A DNA stretch of 43,270 bases. Origin: a virus. A program made the position numbers and the translations under genes. Each line of letters starts with the position of its first letter. The stretch's first letter is position 1. The stretch is taken from positions 1 to 43,270 of IMG/VR virus record IMGVR_UViG_3300044846_003855. One strand, 5' to 3'. Under the pieces are notes generated by a model, which ran no database searches, was not told where the DNA came from, and saw only the letters and a program-made list of their open reading frames with translations. Below are positions 1 to 43,193 of this stretch, piece after piece.

Positions 1-70
1 CCGGAAGGCATCCCTCGTTCGGGGAGCGAGCGCAGTCTGCCCGAAACCGATTCCCGCCCGCAACCTCCAG

Positions 71-610
71 CTACACCACTCGCGAGTCGTTCGGATTGAA
101 GGGCTCGTAGGTCGTCTTTCCGTTGACGACGAACATCGACAGATTCTGCCCGCGCTTCTGCTTGTCGCGGGGGTTCAGCAGCCCGACATGGACCCACGTT
201 CGCTCAAAGATAAGCTGGTCGAGCTTCACGCCGGTCGTGATGATGTCGGTCATCAGCTTCTTGCACCCGTGCGGCGGGTGAAGGTCAGCCGCGAGGCCGT
301 AGCTGTGGGCCGAGGTGGTCGAGCCGCCGACAGCCTTGTTGACGGCGTCGGAGCGGTAGCCCGAGTTCACCTTGAGCGGCCCCACCTTGGCGCGGATGGG
401 CTCCAGCGCCTCGTTGCAGAGCTTGCGGAGGTTCTCGATGACCTCCGGCGACGGGTCGTTGCTCAACCCCTTCGACCGGCCCGTCGGCGTGTCGAGCATC
501 TCCGACAGCTTGAAATGCGGGCTCAACTGAATGTCGTCGCACTTGCCGTCGCCGCCGCAGCGGTCGCAAGCCTTGTTCTTCCCCCAGCACTTCGGGCAAT
601 CCATCTGCAT
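71..610 (-). CDS. M15-family peptidoglycan peptidase (endolysin-like) with N-terminal zinc-ribbon-like segment
   Basis: This 179-aa protein carries the M15 zinc-peptidase signatures: a Ser-Gly-Tyr-Arg stretch near 83-86, the zinc-binding S-x-H-x-x-G-x-A-x-D pattern (His102, Asp109) and a W-V-H motif (His141) with a preceding Glu136. Family members hydrolyse D-Ala-containing peptide bonds in peptidoglycan, and phage members act as endolysins or virion lysins. The first 25 residues hold five cysteines (CPKC at 5-8, C15, C18, C24) resembling a small zinc ribbon, an unusual addition. There is no signal peptide. It is the last gene of the leftward operon, 3 bp after the signal-peptide membrane protein at 614-1075, which together suggests a lysis module. 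A dispersed-motif copy lies just after its stop. Confidence 0.85.
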   Translation of the reverse strand: MQMDCPKCWGKNKACDRCGGDGKCDDIQLSPHFKLSEMLDTPTGRSKGLSNDPSPEVIENLRKLCNEALEPIRAKVGPLKVNSGYRSDAVNKAVGGSTTSAHSYGLAADLHPPHGCKKLMTDIITTGVKLDQLIFERTWVHVGLLNPRDKQKRGQNLSMFVVNGKTTYEPFNPNDSRVV

Positions 611-613
611 CTG

Positions 614-1075
614 CTACTCCAAGACGACGAGCGCGAGAGCGCCCGCCGCCGCTGTGAAGGCTGCACCGAGCAGCCCGACTGAAACCGATTCCGACTGTGG
701 CAGCGGTGCCGCCGCGAGGGCCATGCCGGAGAGGAATCCGAGCCCCACCGCGCCGATGCGCCGCCCGTAGGGGACGGGCTTCGCCTTCACCACCGCGAGG
801 TCCGCGAGCGCCTTGTCCCTCTCCGAGACGGCGAGGTTGAGCTTGCTTTTGAGTACTCCGGCGTCGGCAGTACTCACTTCTGACCGCAGTACGCAGACGT
901 CCCGTTCCTTCCGAGCGTCGAGCAGCTTGTTGACGAGGGTGTCGAACCCCGCCCGCTGGCAGACGACGGTGTCGGCCACAGCGCGGCACGGCTGCTCTTC
1001 TGCCCGCACCAGCAGCGGGGCGCAGAGCGTCATGGCGCACGCGAGGAAGATGCAGACGGCGAGCGTGCGGGTCAC
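614..1075 (-). CDS. Signal-peptide protein with coiled coil and C-terminal membrane segments (spanin/holin candidate)
   Basis: I choose a GTG start whose first four bases (GTGA) overlap the stop of the upstream gene, giving 153 aa. Residues 1-25 form a signal peptide ending VRA. A charged, heptad-like stretch follows (about 45-98), then two hydrophobic segments at about 107-124 and 132-152 separated by a short Ser-rich turn encoded by a dispersed-motif copy (ESVS). Position next to an M15 peptidase and the membrane topology suggest a lysis accessory such as a spanin or holin, but no family was recognised. The longer open frame upstream overlaps the neighbouring gene extensively and lacks a ribosome-binding site. 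Confidence 0.6.
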   Translation of the reverse strand: MTRTLAVCIFLACAMTLCAPLLVRAEEQPCRAVADTVVCQRAGFDTLVNKLLDARKERDVCVLRSEVSTADAGVLKSKLNLAVSERDKALADLAVVKAKPVPYGRRIGAVGLGFLSGMALAAAPLPQSESVSVGLLGAAFTAAAGALALVVLE

Positions 1076-1614
1076 TTCTTCCTCGACTTCGGGCCACGAT
1101 ACTGGCTGCTTTTCTTGCAGCTTCCCCAAATGCCCTTCTTCTCCGGCCCCCAGTATCCCCACTCCATCAAGTCGTCCCCTGCCCAGCGAACCGTCGATGC
1201 CGGAACCTTGAAGCCGCACACCTTGTAGGACTCCGGGTCGATGCTGTCGCGATGCTCCTTCGCGTATTCCGGCGCGAGCGCAATCCAATCACCGGGGTTC
1301 AGTTCAGCCTTCGGCCCTGCCCGGAAGACATGAACCAAGGAATCGGGCTTCCCGCGCTTCCCCCGCATCGCATCGGACACAGGCCACACATACTGCGGGA
1401 AGCCTGTGTACCAGCTAGGCGACGCCGTGTAGATGTCCTTCGGCGCAGGGCTTCCCGGCGCAAGAAGGTCGTGCAGCGGCGGGCCATCTTCCGGCGGGCG
1501 ATGGGCCATCCCGTAGTCGGCCACATTGCCGTCCAGCGAACAGGAAGCGCGACGACGGCCAGCACCACGCTTTCGGGGCACCGCGCAGAGCTTCTTCGGC
1601 TTCCTCTTGGGCAC
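1072..1614 (-). CDS. ADP-ribosyltransferase-like phage protein with basic termini
   Basis: A protein of 180 aa with a Lys/Arg-rich N terminus (MPKRKPKK) and C terminus. The central part, residues about 95-157, reads V-F-R-A-G, then P-G-D-W-I-A-L with E-Y-A-K-E-H, then a V-P-A-S strand and G-D-D-L-M-E-W-G-Y. This order (Arg, 'PGDWv.l...YA..H', and a Gly-Asp-Asp...Glu-Trp-Gly-Tyr end) resembles an ART-fold domain often found in phage proteins; Glu151 would be the catalytic Glu. The Ser-Thr-Ser of classical R-S-E enzymes is not evident, so activity is uncertain. The fold call is from pattern memory, not a search. The basic ends fit the Arg-rich tag shared with other proteins of this arm. Confidence 0.45.
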   Translation of the reverse strand: MPKRKPKKLCAVPRKRGAGRRRASCSLDGNVADYGMAHRPPEDGPPLHDLLAPGSPAPKDIYTASPSWYTGFPQYVWPVSDAMRGKRGKPDSLVHVFRAGPKAELNPGDWIALAPEYAKEHRDSIDPESYKVCGFKVPASTVRWAGDDLMEWGYWGPEKKGIWGSCKKSSQYRGPKSRKK

Positions 1615-1617
1615 GAC

Positions 1618-1848
1618 CTACTCCTCCTTCATCATCTTCACGACGGACCCGGCGACCAGCACCGAGACGAACGCCATGAAGCCCGCAATCGCCATCCGCT
1701 TCGCGGTCGTCGTCGCAGGGGTGGTCGAGTAAAACTTGCTGATGGGGAACTCAATCACCGCGATGACGCCCGCAGCGGTCAGCGCGAGCGGGAACAGGCT
1801 TTCGGGAGCGGTCGGGTTCGCAGCGAGTCGGCGCATCATCGCCTCCAT
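1618..1848 (-). CDS. Small two-TM membrane protein
   Basis: The 76-aa product has two hydrophobic helices at about 18-36 and 50-70 with a short polar Thr-rich loop and a charged C terminus (KMMKEE). Size, topology and location in the lytic cluster would fit a holin, but many phage-arm proteins here have similar helices and no family is recognised. It overlaps the end of the upstream zinc-ribbon gene by 13 bp and is followed after 3 bp by the ART-like gene. Confidence 0.6.
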   Translation of the reverse strand: MEAMMRRLAANPTAPESLFPLALTAAGVIAVIEFPISKFYSTTPATTTAKRMAIAGFMAFVSVLVAGSVVKMMKEE

Positions 1849-2042: not shown

Positions 2043-2723
2043 CTAGTTGCCGACGGGCGCGGCGAGCGCCTCTTCGTACATCGCGAAGAACTTCGGGACC
2101 ATGTCGCGGTGCGACACGGGCACAACCTGCGCCTCGCCTCCGGCCTTGTTGATGGCGGCGGCAATCTGCGGCATGGCTTGCTTGATGGACTCGTACTTCG
2201 CCGCCCAGTTCGCCACGTTGTAAATCATGCGAACCCCTGCATTCCAAGGCAGATTGAGGTAGCGCACGTTGGTTGATGGGTCGATGAGCCCGACGAACGA
2301 GAACTCCGGCGAGAACCCGTTCTGAACGTCTGCACCGCCCGCCGAGAAGCCGAGAGCCTTCACTCCGGCGACGGTGAGCCCCTCGCGAGCGGCGATGGCC
2401 CGGCCCTGCTGAACGTAGGACGCGAGCGAGCCCGAGCCCGTGTCCACGAACAGCATCAGCGCCCGCCGCTTGAGCGAGTCCGGGGCGACCTTCGCGATGG
2501 CCCGCTTGGTCGCGTAGGACACGCTGGGCGTGCCTCCGAAGAAGACGATGAGCGGAGCGGTCGAGAGCCCCGTGGGGACGGAGACGACAGCCTTTCCGTC
2601 CTCGTAGCTCTTCACGCCGGAACCGATTTTCGGACTCGACGCCGTCGGGGTCTGCCCCATGAAGAGAACCGCTCCGACACCAAGCGCCGCGAGGGCTGCG
2701 ACGAAGAGAGCCTTCCGGTTCAT
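2043..2723 (-). CDS. Membrane-anchored alpha/beta-hydrolase-like protein
   Basis: The ATG overlaps the stop of the upstream M15 gene (ATGA), giving 226 aa. Residues 5-23 form a signal anchor. The mature part shows an early beta strand with P-L-I-V-F-F-G-G (57-64, the oxyanion-type loop), a nucleophile elbow G-F-S-A-G (Ser127) and a late His205, with Asp148 as a possible acid. This is the order of an alpha/beta hydrolase, so a lipase, esterase or amidase acting at the envelope is plausible. A weak dispersed-motif copy lies within codons 32-35. Sitting between two peptidoglycan peptidases, it may be part of envelope breaching. Confidence 0.6.
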   Translation of the reverse strand: MNRKALFVAALAALGVGAVLFMGQTPTASSPKIGSGVKSYEDGKAVVSVPTGLSTAPLIVFFGGTPSVSYATKRAIAKVAPDSLKRRALMLFVDTGSGSLASYVQQGRAIAAREGLTVAGVKALGFSAGGADVQNGFSPEFSFVGLIDPSTNVRYLNLPWNAGVRMIYNVANWAAKYESIKQAMPQIAAAINKAGGEAQVVPVSHRDMVPKFFAMYEEALAAPVGN

Positions 2724-3748: not shown

Positions 3749-4035
3749 CAGTTCCTCCGAATCACTTCGTTCGCGATGTCCACCGAGTCCTGCTCCCGAA
3801 CGGTGGCATCGTCCTGTTCCAGCTTGGCGAGCCGCGCCGAAACCGATTCCTTCACCTCTGCGGCGTGCGTCTCAGCAGCGACGGCGATGGCTTGGTTCTT
3901 CTCGACGGACGCCGCAGCAGCCTTCGCTTTGGCTTCCAGCGCGTCGAGCAGGGCGGTGTGCTTGGCGGTCTTCTTCAGCCACGCGAAGACGAACGTGGCG
4001 AGCCCGGCGACGAACAGCAGGAACGCGGTCATCAC
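3748..4035 (-). CDS. Membrane protein with long coiled coil
   Basis: Of 95 aa, residues 3-20 are a TM helix and about 25-90 are an Ala/Glu/Lys-rich coiled coil. The topology (N-terminal anchor, long helix) is that of i-spanin-like or tail-chaperone-like proteins, but sequence gives no family. A full dispersed-motif copy is read as ESVS at about residue 64. It overlaps both neighbours by 1-4 bp. Confidence 0.65.
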   Translation of the reverse strand: MMTAFLLFVAGLATFVFAWLKKTAKHTALLDALEAKAKAAAASVEKNQAIAVAAETHAAEVKESVSARLAKLEQDDATVREQDSVDIANEVIRRN

Positions 4036-4820: not shown

Positions 4821-4890
4821 CGGAGACTCCTTTGTCCCCGAGGCGACTGTACCCGAGCCGGAATCGGTTTCGCTACGGGACCGGCACGCT

Positions 4891-6269: not shown

Positions 6270-6574
6270 CGGAACACCTCCCCCACCACGCGGCCCGAAA
6301 CCGATTCCCGGCGCTCACCGAGCCGGTCTTGAGCGACGACGCGAAGACGACAGAGCCCGCCGGGCTGCACCGCACCCTTCACGATGGAGCAGCCCGACGG
6401 AGCCCGCCAAAACGCGCAGTTGGAACACTTCATGCCCGTGCCGCGATGCGGGTTCTGCGGCTCATCGACGTAGCAAGCGCCCTCTGTGTCATGTGCTTTC
6501 GACCACGCGCCGACTTTCGACGCGATGGCAAGCTGCGTTCGGATGACGAGGTTCTGCCGTGCCGAGTAAGCCAT
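6266..6574 (-). CDS. Four-cysteine HiPIP-like small protein
   Basis: The 102-aa protein contains C50-x-x-C53, C62 and C75 in a K-C-S-N-C-A-F-W ... G-C-S-I-V-K-G-A-V-Q-P-G-G-L-C layout. This spacing resembles a small family of phage proteins compared with high-potential iron-sulphur proteins (CxxC, C, C with aromatic residues). Cluster or zinc binding is inferred, not shown. The start overlaps nothing upstream (9-bp gap) and its end overlaps the GNAT-like gene by 4 bp. A dispersed-motif copy is read as ESVS near the C terminus. Confidence 0.6.
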   Translation of the reverse strand: MAYSARQNLVIRTQLAIASKVGAWSKAHDTEGACYVDEPQNPHRGTGMKCSNCAFWRAPSGCSIVKGAVQPGGLCRLRVVAQDRLGERRESVSGRVVGEVFR

Positions 6575-7705: not shown

Positions 7706-8401
7706 CTATCGTGACCGGCGGCGAGCCCGCCGACGGAATCCCGAAACCGATTGCGCGGCCTTTCGGGCCACTTCCGACGTCCCACCGCTCGCGTAGGCCG
7801 CAGCCCCGCGAGCCGTGAGTTCTGCCGCCTTCCGGCCCGCCGACGTCACGTTCTGCTGGCCGCGCTCCAGCGAGTCCGCAGCCGCGTCCGCAGCGGCCCG
7901 CGAACCGCCCCGCTTGTAGGCCGAGAAGGTGCGGAGCAGCGGCGGGAGCAGGAAGACTGCGGCGACGCCGACGGTGCCCCAAATGAGGACGTTCTTGATG
8001 AACCGCGCCGGAGCCGTGACAACGCCGAGAACCTCCGTCGCGAGCCCGAGAGCGCCCTCTGCGAGGCTTCCCAGCGTCGCGGATGGAGAGCGGGCGTTCC
8101 ACGCCTCCAGCGCCTGTCCGTAGCTCTTCAGCGCGTTCGCGAGGCGGGTCACCTGCGACTTGAAGGCTGCGTCGGTGAGCCGCGTGCCACCGATGGCCCC
8201 GGTGTTCAGCGCCGTCGTCAACTGGGCGAACTCCTGCCCGGCGACGAGCCGCGCCGTCTCCACACCGCCGGAGTCCGCGAGGGAGAAGGACGACTTGGAG
8301 GAATCCAGCATCGAAAGCTGCTGCTGGAACCGCTGAAAGTACTTGCCGAAGGTGGCTCGCAGAGTCTGAAGCTCCGCGTCGTTCAAGGGCTTGTCGGCCA
8401 T
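7706..8401 (-). CDS. Helical virion-type protein with TM and Arg-rich tag
   Basis: This 231-aa protein has an N-terminal helical domain, hydrophobic segments from about 117 to 157 (TM most likely 136-155), an Ala-rich helix and the tail S-G-F-R-R-R-A-R-R-R-S-R. It is third of the set with 6584-7171 and 7181-7696. A dispersed-motif copy is read as QSVS directly before the Arg tail. A membrane-associated virion role is inferred. Confidence 0.65.
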   Translation of the reverse strand: MADKPLNDAELQTLRATFGKYFQRFQQQLSMLDSSKSSFSLADSGGVETARLVAGQEFAQLTTALNTGAIGGTRLTDAAFKSQVTRLANALKSYGQALEAWNARSPSATLGSLAEGALGLATEVLGVVTAPARFIKNVLIWGTVGVAAVFLLPPLLRTFSAYKRGGSRAAADAAADSLERGQQNVTSAGRKAAELTARGAAAYASGGTSEVARKAAQSVSGFRRRARRRSR

Positions 8402-8404: not shown

Positions 8405-8731
8405 CTACCTCTTCGGGATGTCGCAGCGCGGCGGCTGGCGTCCCCAGTTGCGAAGGCTGATGACCGCCTTGGTCGTGCAGCCCCACTTGTCCACCATGCC
8501 CTGCATCCGGGCGTTGAAGCTGTTCACCCGCTGGGCGTACTGGCAGTCCTCCGGCTTCCAAGCGGCGTTCGTCTTGGCGACGAGCTTCGCGAGCTTGGGG
8601 AGGCGACGCCGGGTGTCTTCAAACGACGCCCACTTCGCACGGGGGTCAGACGCCCATGCCCGAATCTCCGACGGACTCATCGTGATGAGTTCGCGGAATC
8701 GGTTTTGGACGATGCGGCAAGGGGACGGCAT
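8405..8731 (-). CDS. Hypothetical protein, SPSEIRAW-type
   Basis: At 108 aa with two or three cysteines in the body and a Trp-rich C-terminal third (V-I-S-L-R-N-W-G-R-Q-P-P). The segment M-S-P-S-E-I-R-A-W after residue 17 may be the true start, but it lacks a clear ribosome-binding site; the longer form is kept because it fills the gap to the upstream gene. The extra N-terminal residues include Q-N-R-F, encoded by a dispersed-motif copy. The type looks familiar from phage-like operons, but no function is known to me. Confidence 0.5.
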   Translation of the reverse strand: MPSPCRIVQNRFRELITMSPSEIRAWASDPRAKWASFEDTRRRLPKLAKLVAKTNAAWKPEDCQYAQRVNSFNARMQGMVDKWGCTTKAVISLRNWGRQPPRCDIPKR

Positions 8732-9190: not shown

Positions 9191-9507
9191 CACTTCACCT
9201 TGGTCGCTGCGTCGGAGCCTTCGATGCGCGAGCGCAGCACTCGCACATCAGCCCGTATTTCCGCGAGAGTGTCTCGCATGAGGAGGAACTGCTCTTCCAT
9301 CCTTTTGAGCTTGTCTCCTTGCTCGTCGGCCTTCTCGCGTTGGGTGGCGAGCTTCATCTCGACCCGCCCGTCCACAAAGTCTTCGGCCTTCGACAGGCCC
9401 ATGATGACGACCCCGACGCTGACGACGACTGCCACGATGAGCGAGAACGGTCGGCGCAGCGTGGGGTCGAGGACGGAGGCTATGCGGGAATCGGTTTCGT
9501 CCGGCAT
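9190..9507 (-). CDS. One-TM coiled-coil protein
   Basis: The 105-aa protein has a TM helix at about 20-38 and a charged coiled coil (43-100). The N terminus M-P-D-E-T-D-S-R contains a dispersed-motif copy. The layout resembles 3748-4035 and 4891-5178. Its TGA overlaps the next start. The function is unknown; spanin-like or virion-membrane roles are possible. Confidence 0.6.
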   Translation of the reverse strand: MPDETDSRIASVLDPTLRRPFSLIVAVVVSVGVVIMGLSKAEDFVDGRVEMKLATQREKADEQGDKLKRMEEQFLLMRDTLAEIRADVRVLRSRIEGSDAATKVK

Positions 9508-11485: not shown

Positions 11486-11538
11486 GTGAGTGTGCCTCCG
11501 AGAGGGGTGAGCCGGAATCGGTTCTAGCAGATACAGCG

Positions 11539-12710: not shown

Positions 12711-13277
12711 CTACGCTCCGACGGGGGAAGCCGCCGACGCGGCGACGGGTGGAATCGGTTCTGCGACGGTCTGCGTCGGGACCGGCGTGCGGTCGGTCAC
12801 TTCGGGCGGGAGAGCGCCACGGGACCGCTTGCGGAAGGCAACGTAAGCTGCCGAGCGCGCGAAGATGGCCTTCTTGAACGCCTCGCCCGGTGGGAGGGCC
12901 GGAATCTTGATGGTGGTGCCCTTGTCGAGACGGTCGGCGTCCTCAAACTGCGTCGAGGCGGTGCGGTTGTAGTCCCACAGGAACGGGAACCAGCGCCAAT
13001 CGCCGTAGGTGTCGCGGGCGATGGACGACCACGATTGGTCGCGCTGCACGGTGAGCAGCTTGTCGGCAGCGCCGGGGGCGGGCGGCGCGACCGTCGTCCC
13101 GGCGGTGACAGCCGACGCCGTCGGAAGCTCCATGACGCCCTCCTTGCGGAGGATGGGCTCTGCGGCAGCTTCCCGCTTCTCTGCCTTGGCCCGGCGGGAC
13201 CACAGGAAGATGCCAGCGACGGCGAGGAGCCCGCCGCCGAGGATGAGGTTCTTCTTCGCGCTTTCGCTGAGAGCCAT
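12711..13277 (-). CDS. Membrane-anchored LysM-domain protein
   Basis: In this 188-aa protein residues 10-26 are a TM helix followed by a Lys/Arg stretch. A Thr/Pro-rich linker leads to a LysM-like domain at about 75-127, with T-V-Q-R-D-Q-S-W-S-S-I-A, Y-G-D-W-R-W and G-T-T-I-K-I-P landmarks. LysM domains bind GlcNAc-containing glycans such as peptidoglycan; phage baseplate LysM proteins also use it structurally. The anchor points to a virion-membrane or envelope location. A dispersed-motif copy is read as EPI near the C terminus. Confidence 0.75.
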   Translation of the reverse strand: MALSESAKKNLILGGGLLAVAGIFLWSRRAKAEKREAAAEPILRKEGVMELPTASAVTAGTTVAPPAPGAADKLLTVQRDQSWSSIARDTYGDWRWFPFLWDYNRTASTQFEDADRLDKGTTIKIPALPPGEAFKKAIFARSAAYVAFRKRSRGALPPEVTDRTPVPTQTVAEPIPPVAASAASPVGA

Positions 13278-13706: not shown

Positions 13707-13729
13707 GGTGTTCATCTCCGAAATCGGTT

Positions 13730-29752: not shown

Positions 29753-30301
29753 ATGGCGAAGCGAAGGATGAGAAGGAAGCTGGGCGGGCTCGGGGACGCA
29801 CCCCGTGGACACGCGGACAAGGCGCACAACGAGGCGAACCACGCCATCCGGGCCTTCCTGCAAGTGAAGAAGAGCAAGTCTTGCCCCGTTCGTCTTCAGA
29901 ACTTGGAGGCGGGCCTCGTCTCGATGGGAATGTCACAGGCCCATCAGCTTGAGGCGCACGGGCTGGTCAGCAAGGCGGGCAACCGCGCCCCGGCCCTCCA
30001 GCGGGCTGCGGAGGCGGCGTACCTCGCGGTGGATGAGTGCCTCGCGGACCGCAACCTCGCCGGGCTCCGTCGCCGGAAGACCTCGCGCCGCCTCGGCAGC
30101 GCCGCCGTTCTCGACAAGCCGGAGCAGATTTCCCACTACCGCAACCTCGTCCTGCTCAAGTCGCTGGAGACGGAGGTCAAGTTCCCCGGCATGAAGATGA
30201 CGCGGGGGCCGACGGCCTACTCCATCATCAAGGCTGAGTTTGGGCTCAAGGGAACCAAGGCCAAGGTGCTGGAGCAGTTCCACCGAATGGTCAAGGGCTA
30301 G
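29753..30301 (+). CDS. Arg-tagged helical protein
   Basis: A protein of 182 aa with ATG after AAAGGAG. It starts M-A-K-R-R-M-R-R-K-L-G-G-L-G and has a second tag in the middle, L-A-G-L-R-R-R-K-T-S-R-R-L-G, separating two helical halves. No TM helix is seen. The internal tag suggests two fused modules or a processing site. The stop codon overlaps a dispersed-motif copy. Confidence 0.6.
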   Translation: MAKRRMRRKLGGLGDAPRGHADKAHNEANHAIRAFLQVKKSKSCPVRLQNLEAGLVSMGMSQAHQLEAHGLVSKAGNRAPALQRAAEAAYLAVDECLADRNLAGLRRRKTSRRLGSAAVLDKPEQISHYRNLVLLKSLETEVKFPGMKMTRGPTAYSIIKAEFGLKGTKAKVLEQFHRMVKG

Positions 30302-30327
30302 AACCGATTTCAGCCGGAGAAAGAGAC

Positions 30328-30409: not shown

Positions 30410-31750
30410 TTATCCGTCGAAGGTAGACCAGTCAATATCGTCCTCGTCCAAAGCGTCCGCTTCCGGCACAAGCGGCACCGACGGGACCGGGGGAGGCGGG
30501 GCTCGGAGAGGAATGACCGCCCCCATCGCAGAGGAATCGGTTTCGGCGTAGACCATGTTCGCGAGGGCCGCATGAGCGTGCGGGGTGAGGGAGTAGCACT
30601 CCTCCTTCCCGATGGTGTGTCGCCCGATGGTCCGCTCTTCCAGCAGCGATTCGATGATGTCCTTGACCCGCCGCTTGAGAAGCTCGCTCTCCTTGATGAT
30701 GACGCCCAGCGGCGTCGGGACTGACGAGATGGCGCGGAGGACCGCCCTGCGGTCCCTCATGTCGCGGGAGCCTGTGACGCGCTCGCCCAGTTCGATGACG
30801 CTCGACAGGTGCAGCGAGGCAATCTTCAGCGCCGACTCCAGTTCCGTCGCCCCGACGTACCAATCCTGTCCCGTGCGGGCCGCTCCGATGTCCCACGCGA
30901 GCAACAGCGTGACCTTCGCGGCGATGCTCGTCGCACGGCTGCACGCGGCGGCGACCCGGCGGTTCGCGCCCTCGCGCATCGGGCGCATCGACTCGTACCA
31001 ATCGGTCCACATTTTCTGACCGGCGGCGTCGAGCCACAGGCAGACCCCCGGCGGCGTCGGCGGGTTCGCGAGATTGACGACCCATTGGACGAGGTTCCGG
31101 CGGGCCACCGGGTCATCCGTCGGCGGGGTGGCGAACTCGCGCTCGGGCTCACCGAAGAAGGTGAGGAAGCGGGCGAGGAAGCCTCCCGTCCAATCGGCCT
31201 GTTCCGTATGCCGCTCCAGCAAGTCCGTCGCGACGCCGCAGCACAGGGAGAGGCGCGGGTCTTGGACGGCACCCTTCCGGCTGTTCGCCAATGCGCGACC
31301 AATCGGGATTCCGTCCCAAAGATTGGTGTATGCGGTCTTGAGGGCCATCATGTAGCCCTCTTCCGCTTTCGCGAGGAACTCACCGAACTCGCCGTAGATG
31401 ACAAGCTGCCGCTGCTGGCTGCGGAGCGACTCGTAGAGCCCCTCCTGCGAGCCCGGCACCTCTCCGACAGCCTCCGGCGACGCCTCGCGGAGGATGCGCT
31501 GGGCGATGTTGATGGACGCCGTCTTCCGGCTCTTCGATGAGTCGCCTACGATGAGCGTGAAGAGGTTGCCCCACAGCGGGCTCGCGTAGGGCACGCAGTA
31601 GTCCAGCGGCACGGTCTGCGTGAGGATGGAGAGCGCCCCGCCAAGGTGGTAGGCGATGTTCGCGTCGGTCCTCTGTGCGGCGTATTCAACGTAGTTGCGG
31701 ACGAAACCTGTCGGCGGGAGTGCGGCCCAAACGTCTGCTTCCGTAATCAT
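30410..31750 (-). CDS. DUF3987-like P-loop ATPase (replication-associated)
   Basis: The N-terminal half of the 446-aa protein carries a variant P-loop, L-I-V-G-D-S-S-K-S-R-K-T-A-S (67-79), of the 'VGxxxxxRKxTS' kind I associate with DUF3987 proteins, and a V-I-Y-G-E-F-G-E-F segment (about 115-123) in the position of Walker B. Such proteins often sit with primases or helicases in plasmids and phages. The C-terminal third resembles a winged-helix (T-P-L-G-V-I-I-K-E-S-E-L-L-K-R-R) plus an acidic tail. It runs opposite to the helicase gene with which it shares a divergent promoter region. Motif copy at 30533 encodes ETDS. Confidence 0.65.
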   Translation of the reverse strand: MITEADVWAALPPTGFVRNYVEYAAQRTDANIAYHLGGALSILTQTVPLDYCVPYASPLWGNLFTLIVGDSSKSRKTASINIAQRILREASPEAVGEVPGSQEGLYESLRSQQRQLVIYGEFGEFLAKAEEGYMMALKTAYTNLWDGIPIGRALANSRKGAVQDPRLSLCCGVATDLLERHTEQADWTGGFLARFLTFFGEPEREFATPPTDDPVARRNLVQWVVNLANPPTPPGVCLWLDAAGQKMWTDWYESMRPMREGANRRVAAACSRATSIAAKVTLLLAWDIGAARTGQDWYVGATELESALKIASLHLSSVIELGERVTGSRDMRDRRAVLRAISSVPTPLGVIIKESELLKRRVKDIIESLLEERTIGRHTIGKEECYSLTPHAHAALANMVYAETDSSAMGAVIPLRAPPPPVPSVPLVPEADALDEDDIDWSTFDG

Positions 31751-31886: not shown

Positions 31887-33539
31887 GTGGCATGGTTTCG
31901 CTTTGAGTTTTCGCATCTGACGTCAGAGGCGGCGCGAGCAGTCGCGGCCATCCCCGGCGTGAAGCTGGCTGACAGGACCGCCATCGCCCATGAGAATGCG
32001 GCGTGGCTGGTCGAGAGGGCGGTGAAGCTGTACTCCATCCGCTTCCGGGTCGAGGTGCTGACGCCCGACCGCACCCCCCTCGCCTCCATCGACGACCTCG
32101 TCCCCAACGGGCTGAGAGATTGGGTGCCCGCGTTCCTCACGCCATACCAGCGGGAGGGCATCCTGTCGATGGCACACAAGGACGGGCACCTCCATTGGGC
32201 TGCGGGCAGCGGGAAAACTGCCGGTGCCATCTGCTGGGCGCTCGCCCATCCCGGCGCGACTGTCGTCGTCACCCGTGCCGGTGTCCGGCGGTCGCACGCC
32301 CGCGAAATCGAGCGCCTCACCACGCACCGGGCGCTGGTGCTGGAGAGCAAGGACGACGCTGCCAAGCTGGAGGACACCGAAGCCGTCTTCGTCGTCGTCG
32401 GGTGGGAGGGGCTCCCCGACTTGATAGAACCGATTCTGAACTGGCGACCGACGAACGTCGTCTTCGATGAGGTTCACAAGGCGAAGAGCCACAAGCGATG
32501 GGGCGCGACGCAGCAAGCCGACGGCAAGCTCAAGTTCGACCTCCACGACAACATCGCCGCCGCAGCCTACCGGCTCTCGCGCAAGGTGAAGCGGCGGCTG
32601 GGGACGACCGCGACGCCCATCAAGGACCGCACCCGCGACCTGTGGGCGCAGCTTGACCTCGTCCACCCCGATGCGTGGGGACCGTTCTTCAAGGAGGACC
32701 GCGCCTCGTTCACCGTCCGCTACTGCGCGGCCCGGAAGGGAATGTACGGGGGCATCGACACGACGGGCGAGAGCAACACGACGGAGCTTGAGCAGCGCGT
32801 CTCCATCGTGCGTGACCTCGTCCCGCACTCCGTCACGCACCGGCACCTCCCGCCCCGGCGGCGGCTCGTCACCTACGTCACCTTGGAGGAGCAGAACGCC
32901 GCGACAGGCTTCACGCAGGGCTTCTTCAAGAAAGCGGCGAAGGGCGGGAAGAACGGGCTCCTTGAAGCGAAGCTGATGGAAGCCGCCGCAAAGAAGCGAA
33001 AGCTGCTTTTGGAACTGGTGGAAGAAGCGGTCGCTGCGAAGCAGAAGATTGTCATCTTCACCGGGCGTCGCGAGGACTGCGACAAGCTCGCGGAATCGGT
33101 GTCGAAGCTGGGCACGCCCGCCCGCGTCTTCTCCGGCCACGGTGGGACGCCGCCCAGCGTGCGCGACCAAATGCAGCAGGACTACATGAGCCAGCAGGGA
33201 CCGTGCATCCTCGTCGGGACCGGCGATGCGTGGGGCGAAGGCGTCAACCTGCAAGACACCGACGTCGCCTTCATCGCGATGCTGCCCTACACGCCGGGGC
33301 AGGTGGTGCAATGGGAAGGCCGGTTCTGCCGTCACGGTCAGAAGCGTCCCGTCCTCATCCAGTACCTCGTCGCGGAGGGCACCGTGGACGAACACGTTGC
33401 GGGCATCCTGCTCAACAAGCTGCCCGCCGTGGAATCGGTTTCAAAGGACGACTCCATCACCGGCTTCGCGGACCAGTTGGCTGGGTCCGACGACGAAGAA
33501 GCCATCATCGCTTCCATCATGGGCAAGCTGGGCATCTAG
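31887..33539 (+). CDS. SNF2/DEAD-type superfamily 2 helicase
   Basis: A GTG at 31887 with AGGAG six bases ahead is the best start; earlier ATG and TTG codons overlap the promoter. The 550-aa product has motif I A-A-G-S-G-K-T (105-111), motif II D-E-V-H (194-197), motif III G-T-T-A-T-P near 230, motif V G-T-G-D-A-W-G-E-G-V-N-L-Q and motif VI Q-W-E-G-R-F-C-R-H-G-Q. A Q-like motif P-Y-Q-R-E-G lies near 85. These are typical of SNF2-like ATPases and phage UvsW-like helicases, which remodel DNA or branch-migrate forks. Three motif copies fall within the gene (IEPI, AESVS, VESVS). It heads the early rightward operon. Confidence 0.85.
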   Translation: MAWFRFEFSHLTSEAARAVAAIPGVKLADRTAIAHENAAWLVERAVKLYSIRFRVEVLTPDRTPLASIDDLVPNGLRDWVPAFLTPYQREGILSMAHKDGHLHWAAGSGKTAGAICWALAHPGATVVVTRAGVRRSHAREIERLTTHRALVLESKDDAAKLEDTEAVFVVVGWEGLPDLIEPILNWRPTNVVFDEVHKAKSHKRWGATQQADGKLKFDLHDNIAAAAYRLSRKVKRRLGTTATPIKDRTRDLWAQLDLVHPDAWGPFFKEDRASFTVRYCAARKGMYGGIDTTGESNTTELEQRVSIVRDLVPHSVTHRHLPPRRRLVTYVTLEEQNAATGFTQGFFKKAAKGGKNGLLEAKLMEAAAKKRKLLLELVEEAVAAKQKIVIFTGRREDCDKLAESVSKLGTPARVFSGHGGTPPSVRDQMQQDYMSQQGPCILVGTGDAWGEGVNLQDTDVAFIAMLPYTPGQVVQWEGRFCRHGQKRPVLIQYLVAEGTVDEHVAGILLNKLPAVESVSKDDSITGFADQLAGSDDEEAIIASIMGKLGI

Positions 33540-33562: not shown

Positions 33563-34726
33563 GTGGAACTTCTGAAGAGAGCTTTCGCAGTCAAGGGACC
33601 GGCCCGTAAGCAGCGGGACATCATCAAGTCGCATTTCGCGGACGACCTCACCGTGTTTTGGCGGGACATTTACGGGCAGGTGGAGAGCGGGCTCGTTGAC
33701 GCGAGCAAGGCCGCAGATTGGTCTTCGCTCTACATGGGCATCGCCGCCTCGTTCGTCTACGACCGCAACATTCTCTCGCCGGAGCGGATGGGGCGAATCG
33801 CGGACGATATGCAGCAGCCGACGTTTTGGATGTTCGCCGCGCTGGACGCTGCGGGCGCGACGCCCGACATGGGGCAGACGGCGGTCGCGGAGGCGCGGGC
33901 CATCTCGCATTTCAGCGAGGACGGCGAGAAGGTCTACGAAATCTCACCCGCGCTCGCCCAGCGGCTCGCCCACACCGACGTCCGGGGCGTGGACTGCGCG
34001 AACGTGAGGCTTCCGTTCCCGACCATCGCCTTCAAGGTGCCACCGGAGTCGGGCTTCGATATCCATGAGGTCATCATCATGGAGACGCCCGCCGTCCCGG
34101 CGCTGGATGAGTCGATGCGGCGGGCGTTCAACAAGTTTCTCGACAAGCACAACACCCTCCGGCGGCTGAACGTGCCGGAGAACACCGTCCCGCGCTGCTT
34201 CACGTTCTTCGGAGCCCGCAGCAGCACGCTGGACGACATCATCGTCAGCACGTTTTGGCTCGTTGACGGGATGCCGATTGACGAGGCGAACAGGCTTCAG
34301 ATGAGCGACCCGGCGCATCACACCGACGTCGCCCAGTTCACGACGTTCTGCATGAACGCGGTCCTCTATCTCACATGGCCCGACGCGAACGAGGAGTTTG
34401 AGGAGCGGGTGAATGCCGATTGGGCTACGGCGAAGAAGAAGGTCGCTCAGTTGAATGGCTACAAGAAGGAGCGGGCGAAGGAAAAGCTGAAGACGATGTA
34501 CGCGAACCGGCGCATCTACGTCGGCGCGAAGGTTCCATTCCTCTCGACGCCCGAAACCGATTCCGGCGGGGGCTCACCGCTGCTCGTCCGCACCCTCGTC
34601 TCCGGCCATTGGAAGATGCAGCCGTGTGGCCCAAAGCAGAGCGAACGAAAGCTCATTCGCATCGAACCGTTTTGGCGGGGGCCGCTCGATTCCCCCGTCA
34701 CAAATGCTGTGCGAAAAGTGTCTTGA
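33563..34726 (+). CDS. AcrVA2-like phage protein
   Basis: A GTG after AAGGGGACACGCC gives 387 aa. The middle has V-R-L-P-F-P-T-I-A-F-K-V-P and the C terminus V-S-G-H-W-K-M-Q-P-C-G-P ... R-I-E-P-F-W-R-G, patterns shared by the broad family containing the anti-CRISPR AcrVA2. Family members are widespread in phages, and AcrVA2 itself reduces Cas12a biogenesis by acting on its nascent mRNA; most homologues have no tested function. Location directly behind the helicase in the early operon would fit a counter-defence gene, but this is not proof. A motif copy is read as ETDS. Its stop codon lies inside the -35 of the next promoter. Confidence 0.5.
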   Translation: MELLKRAFAVKGPARKQRDIIKSHFADDLTVFWRDIYGQVESGLVDASKAADWSSLYMGIAASFVYDRNILSPERMGRIADDMQQPTFWMFAALDAAGATPDMGQTAVAEARAISHFSEDGEKVYEISPALAQRLAHTDVRGVDCANVRLPFPTIAFKVPPESGFDIHEVIIMETPAVPALDESMRRAFNKFLDKHNTLRRLNVPENTVPRCFTFFGARSSTLDDIIVSTFWLVDGMPIDEANRLQMSDPAHHTDVAQFTTFCMNAVLYLTWPDANEEFEERVNADWATAKKKVAQLNGYKKERAKEKLKTMYANRRIYVGAKVPFLSTPETDSGGGSPLLVRTLVSGHWKMQPCGPKQSERKLIRIEPFWRGPLDSPVTNAVRKVS

Positions 34727-34791: not shown

Positions 34792-35646
34792 ATGAAGTTC
34801 ACGCAGACTACCGTCTCACCTGCGCTTGCAGCCGATTACCTCAAGCGCAACATCGACACGAATCGGCCCATCAACAAAGCCCATGTCGAAAGGCTCACGC
34901 GGGAAATACGCGAGGGCCGCTGGCAGATACTGCCGCACGGCATCGTCTTCGACGTCAATGGTCGCCTCATCGACGGGCAACACCGGCTCCACGCCATCAT
35001 CGCTGCGAACAAGGCTGTCGGGCTCGTCCTCATCACCGAGGTCAAGTCGAAGACCTTGGACGCCATCGACACGGGCTCCATGCGAGGCATCCACGACCTC
35101 GCCACCATCACCGGGCGCATCGACGGTGGGAACGCTGCTCGCTTCGCTGCCCGAGCCCGCGTGGTGAAGGTCATCCTCTCCGGCTCATCGACGGGGTTCG
35201 ACGCGAGAGCCTTCTCGCTGGCGACTTTTGACGAGGTCATGGAGTCGCACCGGGCGAGCATGGAGTGGTCCGTCCGCGAGTACAACAGCCCCGTCGGAAA
35301 CTCCGGCAACATCACCCGGCGTCTTCGGTCAGCCCTCGTCATGGGGGCGATGGTGGTCGCCCACCAAAAGGCTTCCGAGTCCGTCGAACGGTTTGCGAAG
35401 AAGGTGGACACGGGCATCAGCTTGGCGGGAGACGACCCCGCCTACGCTCTGCGGAAGTACTTGGACACGACTGACACCATCGGCGGGCCGGGAGCGAAGA
35501 GGCTCCCTGCGGTGTATGCAACGCTCCGAGCCGCATACGCCGCCATCCACGGGCACAAGCTCTCCATCATCCGTCCGTCAACTCTCACCCGTGAGAACGG
35601 GGAGTTCGCGAAAGTGCTGAAGTTCTTCAACGTCGAGGAGAAGTGA
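34792..35646 (+). CDS. ParB/sulfiredoxin-fold N-terminal-like protein
   Basis: Residues 57-68 of the 284-aa protein, G-R-L-I-D-G-Q-H-R-L-H-A, are the ParB N-terminal box (G-x-x-x-x-D-G-x-H-R-x-x-A), following I-N-K-A-H-V-E-R-L-T-R-E-I. In chromosomal ParB this box binds CTP; in phages such proteins serve partition, nuclease or regulatory roles. No classical ParB HTH is obvious further on, where the protein is helical with a D-T-I-G-G-P-G-A-K turn. As a candidate DNA-binding factor it could recognise the dispersed 12-bp motif, but nothing in the sequence proves this. Confidence 0.7.
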   Translation: MKFTQTTVSPALAADYLKRNIDTNRPINKAHVERLTREIREGRWQILPHGIVFDVNGRLIDGQHRLHAIIAANKAVGLVLITEVKSKTLDAIDTGSMRGIHDLATITGRIDGGNAARFAARARVVKVILSGSSTGFDARAFSLATFDEVMESHRASMEWSVREYNSPVGNSGNITRRLRSALVMGAMVVAHQKASESVERFAKKVDTGISLAGDDPAYALRKYLDTTDTIGGPGAKRLPAVYATLRAAYAAIHGHKLSIIRPSTLTRENGEFAKVLKFFNVEEK

Positions 35647-36477
35647 ATGACCGAACCCAAGCTCATCAACGCGGGCTCATCCGGCGAGTGGGGCTGGCAC
35701 GCCACCGAACTCGCGATGCGCTGCCCGCAGCTTTTCGCCTACCACCATCGAATCAAGGGCGCGGGAATCGGGGGCGACCGCGACCCGCTGATGAAGGGCT
35801 CGCTCGTCCACCAAGGGCTCGCGCACTACTACGCCCGCGTGAAGAACATGAACGACGACCTCGACCCCGAGCTTTGGGCCACGCCGGACAGGGCGATTGA
35901 GGCGTGCGCGGAGGAGCTTGGCACCGCGTCGTTCAAGTTCATCGACCTCGCGAAGGCCACGGTGAAGAACTACGCGAGCCACTACGCGACGGAGACGCTC
36001 GCGCCGATGCACATCGAAGAGGTCTTCTCCGGCGAGGTGGGAGGCTTCAAGTTCACGCAGCGGTTCGACCTCGTCGCCCGCAACAGCGCCGGGAAGGTGG
36101 TCATCGTTGACCACAAGACGACGGGGCGGCTCTCGCCGGACTCCGCTCGCCGGTACACGCTGTCGGGGCAGTTCCTTGGGATGCAGACCTTCGGGCGTGC
36201 GATTTGGGGAACCGATTTCGGAGGCGTGACCATCAACCTCATTGAGCTTCCCAAGTGGGGCGGCGAGTTCAAGTTCTCTCGCGTGGAGGCCGACCCGGCC
36301 CCGAACGCCCTGCGCGGATTCCCGCTCACCGTCCTCACCGCCCGTCAGCGCATCGCGGACCTCGACGCGGCGGGGACCAACCCGTGGAACTGGCCGAAGG
36401 CTCTCAGCGAGCAGACCTGCGTGACGCCCTACGGGTTCTGCGACGGCTTCGACCTGTGCCGCTGGGGGAAGGACTGA
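35647..36477 (+). CDS. Cas4/RecB-like PD-(D/E)XK nuclease with Fe-S cluster cysteines
   Basis: The 276-aa protein has the RecB-like nuclease order: G-S-L-V-H-Q-G (His55), a first acidic residue in F-D-L-V (Asp141), V-D-H-K-T-T-G (Asp155, Lys157) and Q-F-L-G-M (Gln175). Four cysteines, C26 near the N terminus and C258, C265, C271 near the C terminus (P-Y-G-F-C-D-G-F-D-L-C), match the 4Fe-4S arrangement of Cas4 and AddB. Such phage enzymes act as 5' exonucleases in recombination with an annealase or Sak4-type ATPase, which is encoded at 40492. A motif copy is read as GTDF. It starts one base after the ParB-like gene's stop. Confidence 0.85.
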   Translation: MTEPKLINAGSSGEWGWHATELAMRCPQLFAYHHRIKGAGIGGDRDPLMKGSLVHQGLAHYYARVKNMNDDLDPELWATPDRAIEACAEELGTASFKFIDLAKATVKNYASHYATETLAPMHIEEVFSGEVGGFKFTQRFDLVARNSAGKVVIVDHKTTGRLSPDSARRYTLSGQFLGMQTFGRAIWGTDFGGVTINLIELPKWGGEFKFSRVEADPAPNALRGFPLTVLTARQRIADLDAAGTNPWNWPKALSEQTCVTPYGFCDGFDLCRWGKD

Positions 36478-36683: not shown

Positions 36684-37042
36684 ACTGGTGGCTCCGCAAG
36701 CTGCTCAAGGAGTACCGCGACACGGCGGGCTGCGACCCCGTGAAGGGGGAGTGGTGCTACGAGTGGCCGGAAGACAAGCAGTACACGAAGTGCAGACTGT
36801 GCCGCTGCGTCGATGCCGTCTTCGGGGAGGCGTGGAGGCCGCTGGAGTGGGTCACCGACGAGAGCGGACTCTCCGCTGAAGTGGACGATGACACGCTTGT
36901 CGTCATCCACCGGGCCGACAACAAGTGGAAGTGGCGCATCGAACAGTTGCAGGGGTGGGAATCGGTTTCGACGTCGTCCGGCGAGGACACGAATCTGATG
37001 GACGCGATGTACGCCGCCGAACGTGCGGCAAGGGGACTCTGA
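36680..37042 (+). CDS. Hypothetical protein with Cys cluster
   Basis: The product of 120 aa starts with a GTG overlapping the previous stop. An early W-C-Y-E-W and C-R-L-C-R-C-V-D cluster (C18, C26, C38, C41, C43) could bind zinc or a cluster; the C-terminal half is acidic with a motif copy read as WESVS. No family recognised. Confidence 0.55.
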   Translation: MNWWLRKLLKEYRDTAGCDPVKGEWCYEWPEDKQYTKCRLCRCVDAVFGEAWRPLEWVTDESGLSAEVDDDTLVVIHRADNKWKWRIEQLQGWESVSTSSGEDTNLMDAMYAAERAARGL

Positions 37043-37278: not shown

Positions 37279-37703
37279 TGACTGCACTTGAGACGGTCGC
37301 GCTCTTCTTCTTCCGGCGTCGGCAGTCTGTTCAGCAGGTGGTTCTGCCGATGCCGGAGGGCAACCGCCCGGCGCTGCTGGTGGACGGAAAGGTGACGGTT
37401 GTCGTTCACCCGAAGACCTACGTCGCCGTGTACCGAAAGACCGGCGAGCGGAAGCACGGTCTACGGGAAAGGCTGCTGCGGCACTACGCCGCGAACGACT
37501 ACACGGTCGCGATGCTGGAAACCGATTCCGGCACCGTCGCATTCGCGGACGCCGTCACCATGCTGGCCGCGTCAATGGGCGGGGTCACTCCGGGGGCCAT
37601 TGAGGGCTCCGCTGAGAAGACGAGCTTTACGCCCCGCCGCGTGTTCCAACTCTTCGACGTCACGACGGGGGCGGCGCTGGTGAATCCCGAGGTGGCACCT
37701 TGA
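37278..37703 (+). CDS. Hypothetical protein
   Basis: The 141-aa product, coupled by TGATG to the upstream gene, begins with a short hydrophobic helix and an R-R-R stretch, followed by a beta-rich body. A motif copy is read as LETDS. No family recognised. Confidence 0.55.
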   Translation: MTALETVALFFFRRRQSVQQVVLPMPEGNRPALLVDGKVTVVVHPKTYVAVYRKTGERKHGLRERLLRHYAANDYTVAMLETDSGTVAFADAVTMLAASMGGVTPGAIEGSAEKTSFTPRRVFQLFDVTTGAALVNPEVAP

Positions 37704-38307: not shown

Positions 38308-38586
38308 ATGGGAGAGTTCACACACGCCATGCGGAACCCGGTGCGCGAGCGGGACGACCGCATCCACGAACTGGAATCGGTTTTGGCTCGCGCCTACGAG
38401 TTCATCAACAACGCCACAGCGTTCGACCCGCCGGGCTCACCGAGCCTCGACGTCGCCCTCATGGTGGCGAAGGCGCTGGGCAAGCACCTGCCCGTCGAGC
38501 CGAAGATTGAGCAGGGCACCCCCAAGTGCCGGAACCTCGACTGCGTCCTCTGCCACGGGATGCCGCCGAACGCGGGGCCGCGATGA
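38308..38586 (+). CDS. Hypothetical protein
   Basis: A 92-aa product directly after the previous stop. It has an acidic helical start (R-D-D-R-I-H-E-L-E) with a motif copy read as ESVL, a Pro-rich middle and a C-terminal C-R-N-L-D-C-V-L-C-H pattern that could bind zinc. The end overlaps the next ATG (ATGA). Confidence 0.55.
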   Translation: MGEFTHAMRNPVRERDDRIHELESVLARAYEFINNATAFDPPGSPSLDVALMVAKALGKHLPVEPKIEQGTPKCRNLDCVLCHGMPPNAGPR

Positions 38587-39741: not shown

Positions 39742-40146
39742 ATGAAGTGGTTCAAGGCGACAGAGGAACTCCGGGCGCTGGCCCCCAAGCTCGCGGAAGC
39801 CCGCATGGCGCTGGGCCTTTCGCAGGAAGAGGCCGGAGCCCGCATCGGCACCCATCAGACCGTTATTAGCAAGATTGATAGCGGCAAGTTCCCCGACACC
39901 TTCGGGGAGGTGCTGGCGAAGGCGCTGGTCGAGTACGCTCTCCTTCTGAACATGAAGGTGCCGGAGATGGTCGAGTCGGCCCGAGCCCGCGTCGTCGTGA
40001 AGCGGACCCGTGCGGCGCACGCCCGCCGGTTCACCCCGGCCCCGGCCCGCGTCCCGAACGAGGCGGCGCAGCTTGGCGTGCTGAACCTCGTCGCCTCCGG
40101 CTCGCTGAAGCCACAGGACGCTCTCGCCCTGCTCAAGAGCCTCTGA
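39742..40146 (+). CDS. XRE-family repressor-like regulator
   Basis: The ATG at 39742 is eight bases behind AGGAG, giving 134 aa. Residues 17-70 form an HTH_XRE domain (L-A-E-A-R-M-A-L-G-L-S-Q-E-E-A-G-A-R-I-G-T-H-Q-T-V-I is the helix-turn-helix region, split here for clarity: A-L-G-L-S-Q-E-E and H-Q-T-V-I-S-K-I). The C-terminal part is basic then helical, without a recognisable cleavage domain. Together with the flanking operator it is the best candidate for a lifestyle or early-arm repressor. The stop overlaps a dispersed-motif copy. Confidence 0.8.
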   Translation: MKWFKATEELRALAPKLAEARMALGLSQEEAGARIGTHQTVISKIDSGKFPDTFGEVLAKALVEYALLLNMKVPEMVESARARVVVKRTRAAHARRFTPAPARVPNEAAQLGVLNLVASGSLKPQDALALLKSL

Positions 40147-40168
40147 AACCGATTCCACGGGGGACGCC

Positions 40169-41382: not shown

Positions 41383-41400
41383 GAAACCGATTCCGAATCG
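41383..41400 (+). repeat. Doubled dispersed-motif site upstream of the SSB-like gene
   Basis: The copy GAAACCGATTCC runs directly into GAATCGG, so CCGATTC-C-GAATCGG forms a 7-bp palindrome around one base. It starts 4 bp after the ATPase stop. This is the only copy with an adjoining opposed half in the window. Confidence 0.75.
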
Positions 41401-41469
41401 GGGCACCACCCATCGTTCCCACGCCCCGCGAACCTTCCGAGTCAGCAGGAAGCAAAACTGGCTGGCACC

Positions 41470-42118: not shown

Positions 42119-42154
42119 GGGCGAGCGGAGGTGGTCCGCTCGCCCGCTTTCTTT
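42119..42154 (+). terminator. Intrinsic terminator after the SSB-like gene
   Basis: GGGCGAGCGGA (42119-42129) and TCCGCTCGCCC (42135-42145) form an 11-bp perfect stem with loop GGTGG followed by GCTTTCTTT. It would end the early recombination operon. Confidence 0.85.
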
Positions 42155-42168
42155 CAAAGGGGTGACAC

Positions 42169-42402
42169 ATGGAAGCAGAGGTCGTTCAGAACGCCATCGT
42201 CGGAATGCTCATGGGGCTGGTCTGCGGGATGATTCCCATGATTCTCGCCATCAAGAAGGGGCGGGAAGGTTTCGCCATCGCGTCGGTTGTCGTCTGCGGC
42301 ATCGCGGGTGCGGTGCTGGGCCTCATCCTCGCTGCGCCCGCTGCGGGCATCCTCGCGGCGCTCGTCGGCACGATGGAGACGACGAAGAAGGACGGCAAGT
42401 AG
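42169..42402 (+). CDS. Small membrane protein
   Basis: The 77-aa product has helices at about 7-25, 37-55 and perhaps 58-68, with short Lys ends. The ATG follows AAAGGGGTGACAC. Gly-rich helices suggest a holin-like or superinfection protein; no family recognised. Confidence 0.55.
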   Translation: MEAEVVQNAIVGMLMGLVCGMIPMILAIKKGREGFAIASVVVCGIAGAVLGLILAAPAAGILAALVGTMETTKKDGK

Positions 42403-42639
42403 ATGCGCCGCTTCCTCATCGGCGCAGCCCTCGCGCTGCTCACTCAAGCCTGTGAGAAGACCTGCAAGTCGGAGTGCGCGGACTACGCACGACAGCAGCT
42501 TCGCGAGGTTGGCTTTGAGCCCGTGAAAGCAAACAAAGCGATGTTCGACGCGCAGGTCGAGTTCTGTATGCCCATTTGCGAGCGCCAGCACCAGCGTGCG
42601 AAGGCGCTCAAGGCCAGCGGCGGCGACGAGCCGCTCTAG
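42403..42639 (+). CDS. Putative secreted or lipoprotein-like Cys-rich protein
   Basis: The 78-aa product begins M-R-R-F-L-I-G-A-A-L-A-L-L-T-Q-A-C, a signal peptide with a weak lipobox-like end (Cys17). Further cysteines at 21, 25, 55, 59 lie in C-K-S-E-C and C-M-P-I-C, a CxxxC repeated pattern that could form two disulphides in a helical hairpin. It begins one base after the membrane-protein stop. Confidence 0.55.
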   Translation: MRRFLIGAALALLTQACEKTCKSECADYARQQLREVGFEPVKANKAMFDAQVEFCMPICERQHQRAKALKASGGDEPL

Positions 42640-42648
42640 GAGACTCAC

Positions 42649-43122
42649 ATGAGCCACGTTCGACAGATGATTCCCGCCCCGGCGGGCTACTACGCAACCT
42701 TCGCAGAGGTGACCGGCGAGACGTACACCCGCCCCGTCGTCGCCATCGTCATCATGCAGGACGACGCCGACAAGACGGAACGCTGGACCGAGTACCGCGT
42801 CACGAATCATCACGGTGACCTCTTCAACCCCGTTGACGAGACAAACTTCGTCGCGCTCCGTTGGGCGAACGACGGGCTCTCGCCGGAGGACGAGGCGCGA
42901 GAGACCAAACGCGCCATCGAAAGCGTCAAGCGGGAGCATGAAGAGATGCTTTTCCGAATCGAGGAGGGCAAGGAGAGGAAGCGTCTCGCGGAAGAGCGCG
43001 AGCAGCAGAACCGAAAGGCGATGGAGGAGTTCAACGAGCGGAACCGAAAGGCTCGCGAGGAAGCGGGCCTCACCACGCCGACGCTCGCTGACCGGCTCTC
43101 CGGCACGGGCACCCAGCAGTAG
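42649..43122 (+). CDS. Hypothetical protein with C-terminal coiled coil
   Basis: The first 75 residues of the 157-aa product are mixed beta (V-V-A-I-V-I-M-Q-D-D-A-D), followed by a long charged coiled coil (K-R-E-H-E-E-M-L-F-R-I-E-E-G-K-E-R) to the C terminus. Ribosome-binding site AGGAG precedes. No family recognised. Confidence 0.55.
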   Translation: MSHVRQMIPAPAGYYATFAEVTGETYTRPVVAIVIMQDDADKTERWTEYRVTNHHGDLFNPVDETNFVALRWANDGLSPEDEARETKRAIESVKREHEEMLFRIEEGKERKRLAEEREQQNRKAMEEFNERNRKAREEAGLTTPTLADRLSGTGTQQ

Positions 43123-43193
43123 GACGACACGGGCTCGCTCCGTCGGAATCGGTTCCGGCGGGGCGGGCCTTTCACATTGTGCGGGGACACGCG

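Follow-up and report, generated by a model that had tools for sequence, protein, structure and literature searches.

Evenly spaced, lineage-specific near-palindromes tile the genomes of a virus clade and are putative sites of a virus-encoded DNA-binding protein

The window analysed here is the whole of the IMG/VR virus record IMGVR_UViG_3300044846_003855 (43,270 bases, 64.8% G+C), along which one short near-palindrome recurs from end to end. Its core, AACCGATT/AATCGGTT, occurs 37 times (22 on the plus and 15 on the minus strand; Table 1). Dinucleotide shuffles of the window yield 0.77 on average and never more than 4, and synonymous-codon shuffling, which keeps the proteins and the codon usage, leads to an expectation of 1.1. 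The initial annotation of this DNA had reported a dispersed near-palindrome in excess of chance, with 37 core sites and one core-mismatch site at 33092. All of these coordinates are correct, the excess holds against both kinds of shuffle and the observation is confirmed.

The full element is a 14-bp near-palindrome, YRRAACCGATTYYR, which can be written as Y-R-R-AACCGATT-Y-Y-R. The pattern RRAACCGATTYY is matched by 35 of the 37 sites, and a weaker symmetric preference (Y...R) is seen one base farther out. The form GGAAYCGRTTYC is found at 20 distinct places where 0.07 are expected (21 rows, 43145 being a full palindrome). In this lineage the core is strictly asymmetric at 37 of 37 sites: the symmetric cores AACCGGTT and AATCGATT have 0 occurrences each in the window, and one-mismatch cores are not above chance there. 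The 38th site, GGAATCGGTGTC, carries its mismatch inside the core. The initial annotation understated both the fit of the flanks and the strictness of the core; in sister lineages, by contrast with this one, the core is perfectly palindromic.

The sites are evenly spread. Their mean spacing is 1165 bp with a coefficient of variation of 0.49, compared to 0.97 for random placement (P<5e-5). Intergenic DNA holds 14 of the 37 (3.4 expected, about fourfold enrichment), and 13 of the 37 begin within -3 to 25 nt of a stop codon (1.6 expected, eightfold). Furthermore, many sites lie inside genes, in several reading frames and on both strands, which places the signal at the DNA level; together with the synonymous-codon shuffles, the variety of frames rules out an amino-acid or codon origin. 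Promoters or terminators are likewise ruled out as many sites are intragenic and occur in both orientations, and relative to transcription the window shows no bias (19:18). An RNA hairpin is unsupported because variants of the outer pairs often break pairing (as read from the site list, without a covariation tool). The intergenic enrichment is seen in five records. In the four records tested for distance, a site is present no farther than 1.5 kb from 98-100% of gene starts, and on average gene starts are about half as far from a site as under random placement.

Single-protein searches revealed no relatives, but at least two dozen related contigs were recovered when alignments were guided by motifs conserved in the helicase and Sak4. 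Relatives whose replication proteins are 58-75% identical carry lineage-specific motifs at similar density, about one site per 1.0-1.4 kb. The window core is also present in six more contigs (G067, G073 and G069-G072). G067 holds nine sites in 11 kb with the same RR/YY flanks as the window, while in G069-G072 the core is flanked by C...G instead. A different element, CGAATCGATTCG, occurs 61, 32 and 47 times in the 85.8, 33.6 and 57.3 kb of G045, G046 and G047, respectively, and is a perfect palindrome; synonymous shuffles predict 0.7, 0.3 and 0.5. G045 is a complete circular genome of 85.7 kb (127-bp terminal overlap), and G046 and G047 are near-identical over their overlap. The motif of G048-G050 is GRATCGATYC, and that of G054 is CATCGATG with the variant CATCGAAG; the CATCGATG sites of G054 (L288-L291) frequently overlap gene starts at the ATG. 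All clear motifs have a central CG in common. Spacing is even in G045, G046, G047, G049, G067 and G069 and less so in G054, where two patterns are even at P 0.005-0.016 and another is not.

Not every relative bears such sites. In G052/G051, which are nested in the same clade, no word is evenly spaced or intergenic-enriched. Weak words in G052 (CACCGGCG) and in G057/G059 were left uncounted because they show neither property, and the enriched words CTCGAG of G066 (L309) and GCTATCG of G068 (L314) may or may not be motifs. The motif is a trait of a clade. A 55-kb contig (L124-L126), distantly related through a transglutaminase-like gene, contains GTATTGCA nine times; four of these copies are clustered in about 160 bp, in the manner of local operators.

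In several lineages the same place is occupied by a different sequence. Just past the stop codon of Sak4, the window reads TAGGTCGAAACCGATTCCG (site GAAACCGATTCC), G067 TAAACCGATTTC, G069 TAGTCAACCGATTG (site CAACCGATTG), G046/47 TAACGGCCGAATCGATTCG (site CGAATCGATTCG), G048 TAATCGATTAG and G049 TAAATCGATCC (site ATCGATCC); G045 shows a decayed CGAATCCATTCG. At orthologous gene starts of genomes with different motifs, sites are shared above expectation (odds ratio 6.0, P 3e-4; the pooled pairs are not independent, and G045-G047 have one motif in common). At gene ends the sharing is merely a trend (P 0.09). Such switching in place is the pattern expected of sites under selection whose sequence keeps pace with a binder of changing specificity. 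The Sak4 stop is also followed by a conserved, GGGGCACCAMCCATCGTYCCCACGCCCC-like stretch (window ~41395-41430 and the homologous place in relatives), which, as RNA, might fold into a stem-loop ahead of the next gene.

It is established that these sites are real, that selection acts on them at the DNA level, that they are evenly spaced and that their sequence switches between close relatives. The initial interpretation is supported in part: a genome-wide recognition system is borne out by these relatives, which keep the sites within diverged flanks, and by the bacterial genomes checked, none of which matches the density of the window. We give about an even chance to the reading that they are putative cognate sites of a virus-encoded, sequence-specific DNA-binding protein which tiles the genome with a preference for gene junctions, the candidate binder being a ParB/Noc-family protein, a helix-turn-helix (HTH) protein or both. 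From the symmetric flanks and the perfect palindromes of sister lineages we infer that the binder acts as a dimer.

Any viral binder must be encoded in G045 since this genome is complete. The ParB-like protein of the window, one of the four binders put forward initially, is therefore excluded: its family is absent from the 61 sites-bearing G045 and present in motif-less G052. The sigma-like protein is disfavoured, being 60-63% conserved between lineages with different motifs. The XRE regulator has homologues in G045, G067, G073 and G068 and is disfavoured because motif-less G052/G051 carry one too. Equally disfavoured is an 816-residue SAM-like protein (18197-20647), whose DNA-binding-like domain is 61-73% conserved across different-motif lineages. 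It is more likely that the binder genes lie outside the window.

Table 1. Sites in the window, and proteins of the window and of relatives considered as binders
Feature	Position	Strand	Remark
Site GAAACCGATTCC	43-54	+	
Site GAAACCGATTCC	681-692	+	
Site GGAACCGATTTT	2619-2630	+	
Site GAAACCGATTCC	3839-3850	+	
Site GAAACCGATTCC	4860-4871	-	Intergenic
Site GAAACCGATTCC	6297-6308	+	Intergenic
Site GAAACCGATTGC	7743-7754	+	
Site AAAACCGATTCC	8695-8706	-	Intergenic, ~20 bp upstream of gene start
Site GAAACCGATTCC	9487-9498	-	
Site AGAACCGATTCC	11514-11525	-	Intergenic
Site AGAACCGATTCC	12751-12762	-	
Site AGAACCGATTTC	13720-13731	-	Stop codon on one side, next start on the other
Site GAAACCGATTCT	14580-14591	+	
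Site GGAACCGATTCT	15330-15341	+	
Site GAAACCGATTCC	16074-16085	+	
Site GAAACCGATTCC	17044-17055	-	
Site GAAACCGATTTG	17524-17535	+	
Site AGAACCGATTCC	18588-18599	+	
Site GAAACCGATTCC	20592-20603	+	
Site GAAACCGATTCT	21139-21150	-	
Site GAAACCGATTCC	21916-21927	-	
Site	23501-23512	+	Abuts stop codon of 22690-23502
Site	26244-26255	+	Abuts stop codon of 23552-26245
Site	28380-28391	+	Abuts stop codon of 27314-28381
Site AGAACCGATTCC	29170-29181	-	Intergenic
Site	30300-30311	+	Abuts stop codon of 29768-30301
Site GAAACCGATTCC	30533-30544	-	
Site AGAACCGATTCT	32426-32437	+	
Possible degenerate site	33092-33103	-	GGAATCGGTGTC on + strand; may be chance
Site GAAACCGATTCC	33431-33442	-	
Site GAAACCGATTCC	34553-34564	+	
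Site GGAACCGATTTC	36208-36219	+	
Site GAAACCGATTCC	36958-36969	-	
Site GAAACCGATTCC	37518-37529	+	
Site	38373-38384	-	Within gene 38308-38586; G067 site at same offset (67 nt into gene)
Site	40145-40156	+	Abuts stop codon of XRE gene
Site	41383-41394	+	Right after Sak4 stop codon
Site GGAACCGATTCC	43145-43156	.	Outer bases palindromic
ParB-like protein, PHROG 5931	34792-35646	+	Excluded as binder
Sigma-70 region 4-like protein	21901-22350	-	Disfavoured as binder
XRE (HTH_3) regulator	39742-40146	+	Candidate binder, disfavoured
Integrase-N-like protein	22690-23502		One of four binders proposed initially; still a possible binder
ParB/Noc-family protein	G045 46739-47836		
ParB/Noc-family protein	G047 24992-26182		
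ParB/Noc-family protein	G054 46703-47746		

The best candidates are a ParB/Noc-family protein and/or the adjacent HTH protein, which would form a KorB-KorA-like pair. Wherever a motif-bearing record includes the locus (G045, G046/47 and G054), both genes are present; they are missing from motif-less G052 although the neighbouring genes are there. Pfam ParB_N is above cut-off in P0001, and the family has profile matches to solved ParB, Spo0J and Noc structures over the CTPase and HTH regions. In addition, a site lies at or near the parB gene start in G045, G046/47 and G054. Across these three genomes, the HTH domain is 54% identical in the same-motif pair and 34-36% identical in different-motif pairs. 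The intervals between the HTH and parB genes are largely noncoding over about 1.4-1.9 kb (G045 47837-49267, G047 23051-24991, G054 47747-49209), have no Rfam match and could hold an origin or a large RNA. A type-P5 twister ribozyme lies directly downstream of the parB-like gene of G045 (L277:6669-6731, minus strand).

Several points weigh against this assignment. The DNA-binding domain of ParB varies without regard to the motif (32% identity in the same-motif pair versus 33-36% in others), and the N-domain has NGKxRxRAAL or DGRRRTLHAI where the canonical motif is GERRxRA. The AlphaFold model of the ParB-like protein is poor (predicted local distance difference test score, pLDDT, 51) and unusable. 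The ParB/HTH locus falls in the half of the genome missing from the window, and the pattern of presence and absence draws on three independent genomes with a motif and a single close one without. No ParA was noticed. Lastly, the strict asymmetry of the window core (37/37) is unexpected for a simple homodimer.

The sites most likely belong to a genome-wide silencing or organising system that resembles stoperators or KorB/Noc. Once bound, they would keep the viral genome silent or set roadblocks on it, and/or organise it in a dormant or prophage state, which is plausible because the clade encodes a tyrosine recombinase. Dimers on the sites could be roadblocks in the manner of stoperators. Alternatively, the ParB-family protein, if it works as a CTP clamp, could slide away from its site and, with a locking partner, silence promoters as does KorB, which acts on promoters at distances of up to about 1.5 kb (PMC11790492). 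A reach of this size would match the spacing, given the distances from gene starts to sites. The fullest version of this reading is tentative, and we judge it somewhat unlikely as a whole: the clade would tile its genome with loading sites for a KorB/Noc-like clamp with a locking HTH partner, silence the promoters in reach and rewrite the whole site set when the specificity of the binder changes.

Two kinds of system are already known, namely the dispersed repressor sites of a few phage groups and the sites of ParB-family proteins. The stoperators of cluster A mycobacteriophages have an asymmetric 13-bp core, lie mostly in one orientation, number 30 or fewer per genome and bind a monomeric repressor (PMC6550527, PMC9283540). 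With these L5-like systems, the present one shares many dispersed copies of one short site, a motif that differs between relatives and a site near a regulator gene. However, its sites are near- or fully palindromic and unoriented, unlike those of L5, and there are 37 of them in the 43 kb of the window and 61 in the 85.7 kb of G045. Motif and repressor diverge together in stoperators; here the motif diverges, and the HTH domain tracks it in three genomes only. KorB of plasmid RK2, which acts with KorA, is likewise a ParB-family protein with a reach comparable to the present spacing, and in the relatives a ParB_N protein is encoded beside another DNA-binding protein. In contrast to KorB sites, the present ones are dense and evenly tiled, and the likeness to KorA is, so far, one of gene pairing. 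Noc of Bacillus, also of the ParB family, has about 70 dispersed palindromic sites with a central CG (PMC4331003, PMC7383237), as is found here, but those are chromosomal, far sparser and of other sequence, and Noc serves in membrane-linked division control. The novelty lies in how densely and evenly the sites are placed, in their palindromic, unoriented form and in the exchange of entire site sets between close relatives. Among the papers listed by a literature search of limited reach for the exact words, none has a title on phage binding sites.

The main alternative to silencing is compaction or partition by a Noc/ParB-like scheme: the grid would serve as loading points for a ParB/Noc-like clamp, or for an SMC-like partner that is also encoded, and the DNA would thereby be compacted, segregated or packaged. 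Even tiling of the whole genome regardless of gene direction speaks for it, as do an SMC/RecN-like ATPase next to the HTH/ParB genes and the dispersed Noc palindromes of B. subtilis (PMC4331003). Enrichment at gene junctions and shared gene-start sites suggest regulation instead, although an intergenic bias could also arise if the sites avoid conserved coding sequence, and the lack of a noticed ParA counts here as well. We consider this alternative decidedly unlikely. Classical stoperators, with the XRE-type temperate repressor bound to all sites and blocking transcription in lysogeny, are unlikely too. Besides the homologues listed above, G054 has a positional XRE homologue, the clade has a recombinase, the sites lie at gene junctions, and in cluster A the stoperator motifs and their repressors have diverged together (PMC6550527). 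The recognition helices in AAYCGATT lineages read Q...S(K/R)(I/L)(D/E) and differ in G052 and G068. On the other hand, G052/G051 possess the XRE protein without a dispersed motif, orientation is unbiased, no site lies just upstream of the window XRE gene, and within reach of the partial contigs no XRE was found in G046/47, G049 and G069.

Two further explanations are far less probable. A host-type repeat, common to virus and host chromosome, would recall uptake sequences and HIP1, which have a strict core at about one copy per kb, as the present motif does. Those are host-chromosomal, whereas close virus relatives bear different motifs swapped in place. Moreover, RRAACCGATTYY has a density of ~1-10 per Mb in 26 bacterial genomes of several phyla, none of them enriched, versus ~810 per Mb in the window. 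The 14-base version gave just scattered single matches among the matches listed for 84,980 genomes. The case for a virus-specific motif is strong but not final. In a 297-genome sample from the phylum of a 'Deltaproteobacteria' genome, Sak4 has no relatives. We regard a host repeat as very improbable, and hardly more can be said for sites of a replication, recombination or modification enzyme (Chi-like, primase or methylase sites). A Sak4-like annealing protein, a PD-DExK nuclease, an SNF2 helicase and a DNA polymerase are indeed conserved throughout the clade. Yet these enzymes do not track the motif, for they are well conserved between different-motif lineages (Sak4 about 71-73%), and palindromic, unoriented sites are unlike Chi.

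Other features of these genomes are recorded here. In the scans made, the virion proteins of the clade matched no described family; no terminase, tail or capsid family was recognised among the proteins scanned (window 1-21054; L276:887-2889). Proteins of the structural cluster are small and often have one transmembrane-like stretch and arginine-rich ends. A paralogous pair (G045_26/27) has a weak, low-confidence match to a jelly-roll-like fold (picornavirus capsids, SPV1, FLiP), hinting at a possible undescribed tailless virus group. L-x-G-[LV]-[GAS] motifs (LNGLG, LGGLG, LAGVG), which resemble viral protease processing sites, recur near protein ends (window 13730-16115, 29346-30301 and others). 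The window further encodes two tandem paralogous kinase-like proteins (13730-14569 and 14566-15360, 35% identical), a transglutaminase-like protein (15369-16115), an ADP-ribosyltransferase of the ART-PolyVal family (21487-21900, Pfam above cut-off) and, within the structural cluster, a tRNA-Asn(GUU) whose CCA is not encoded (17250-17324, minus strand).

Our findings point to a silencing or chromatin-like system that would act across whole genomes of this virus clade. Close relatives carry four or more different site sequences at similar spacing, in some cases at the same positions. The clade thereby offers a natural experiment on the joint change of a protein and the tens of sites that it would bind, and clamp-based silencing by a virus becomes directly testable.

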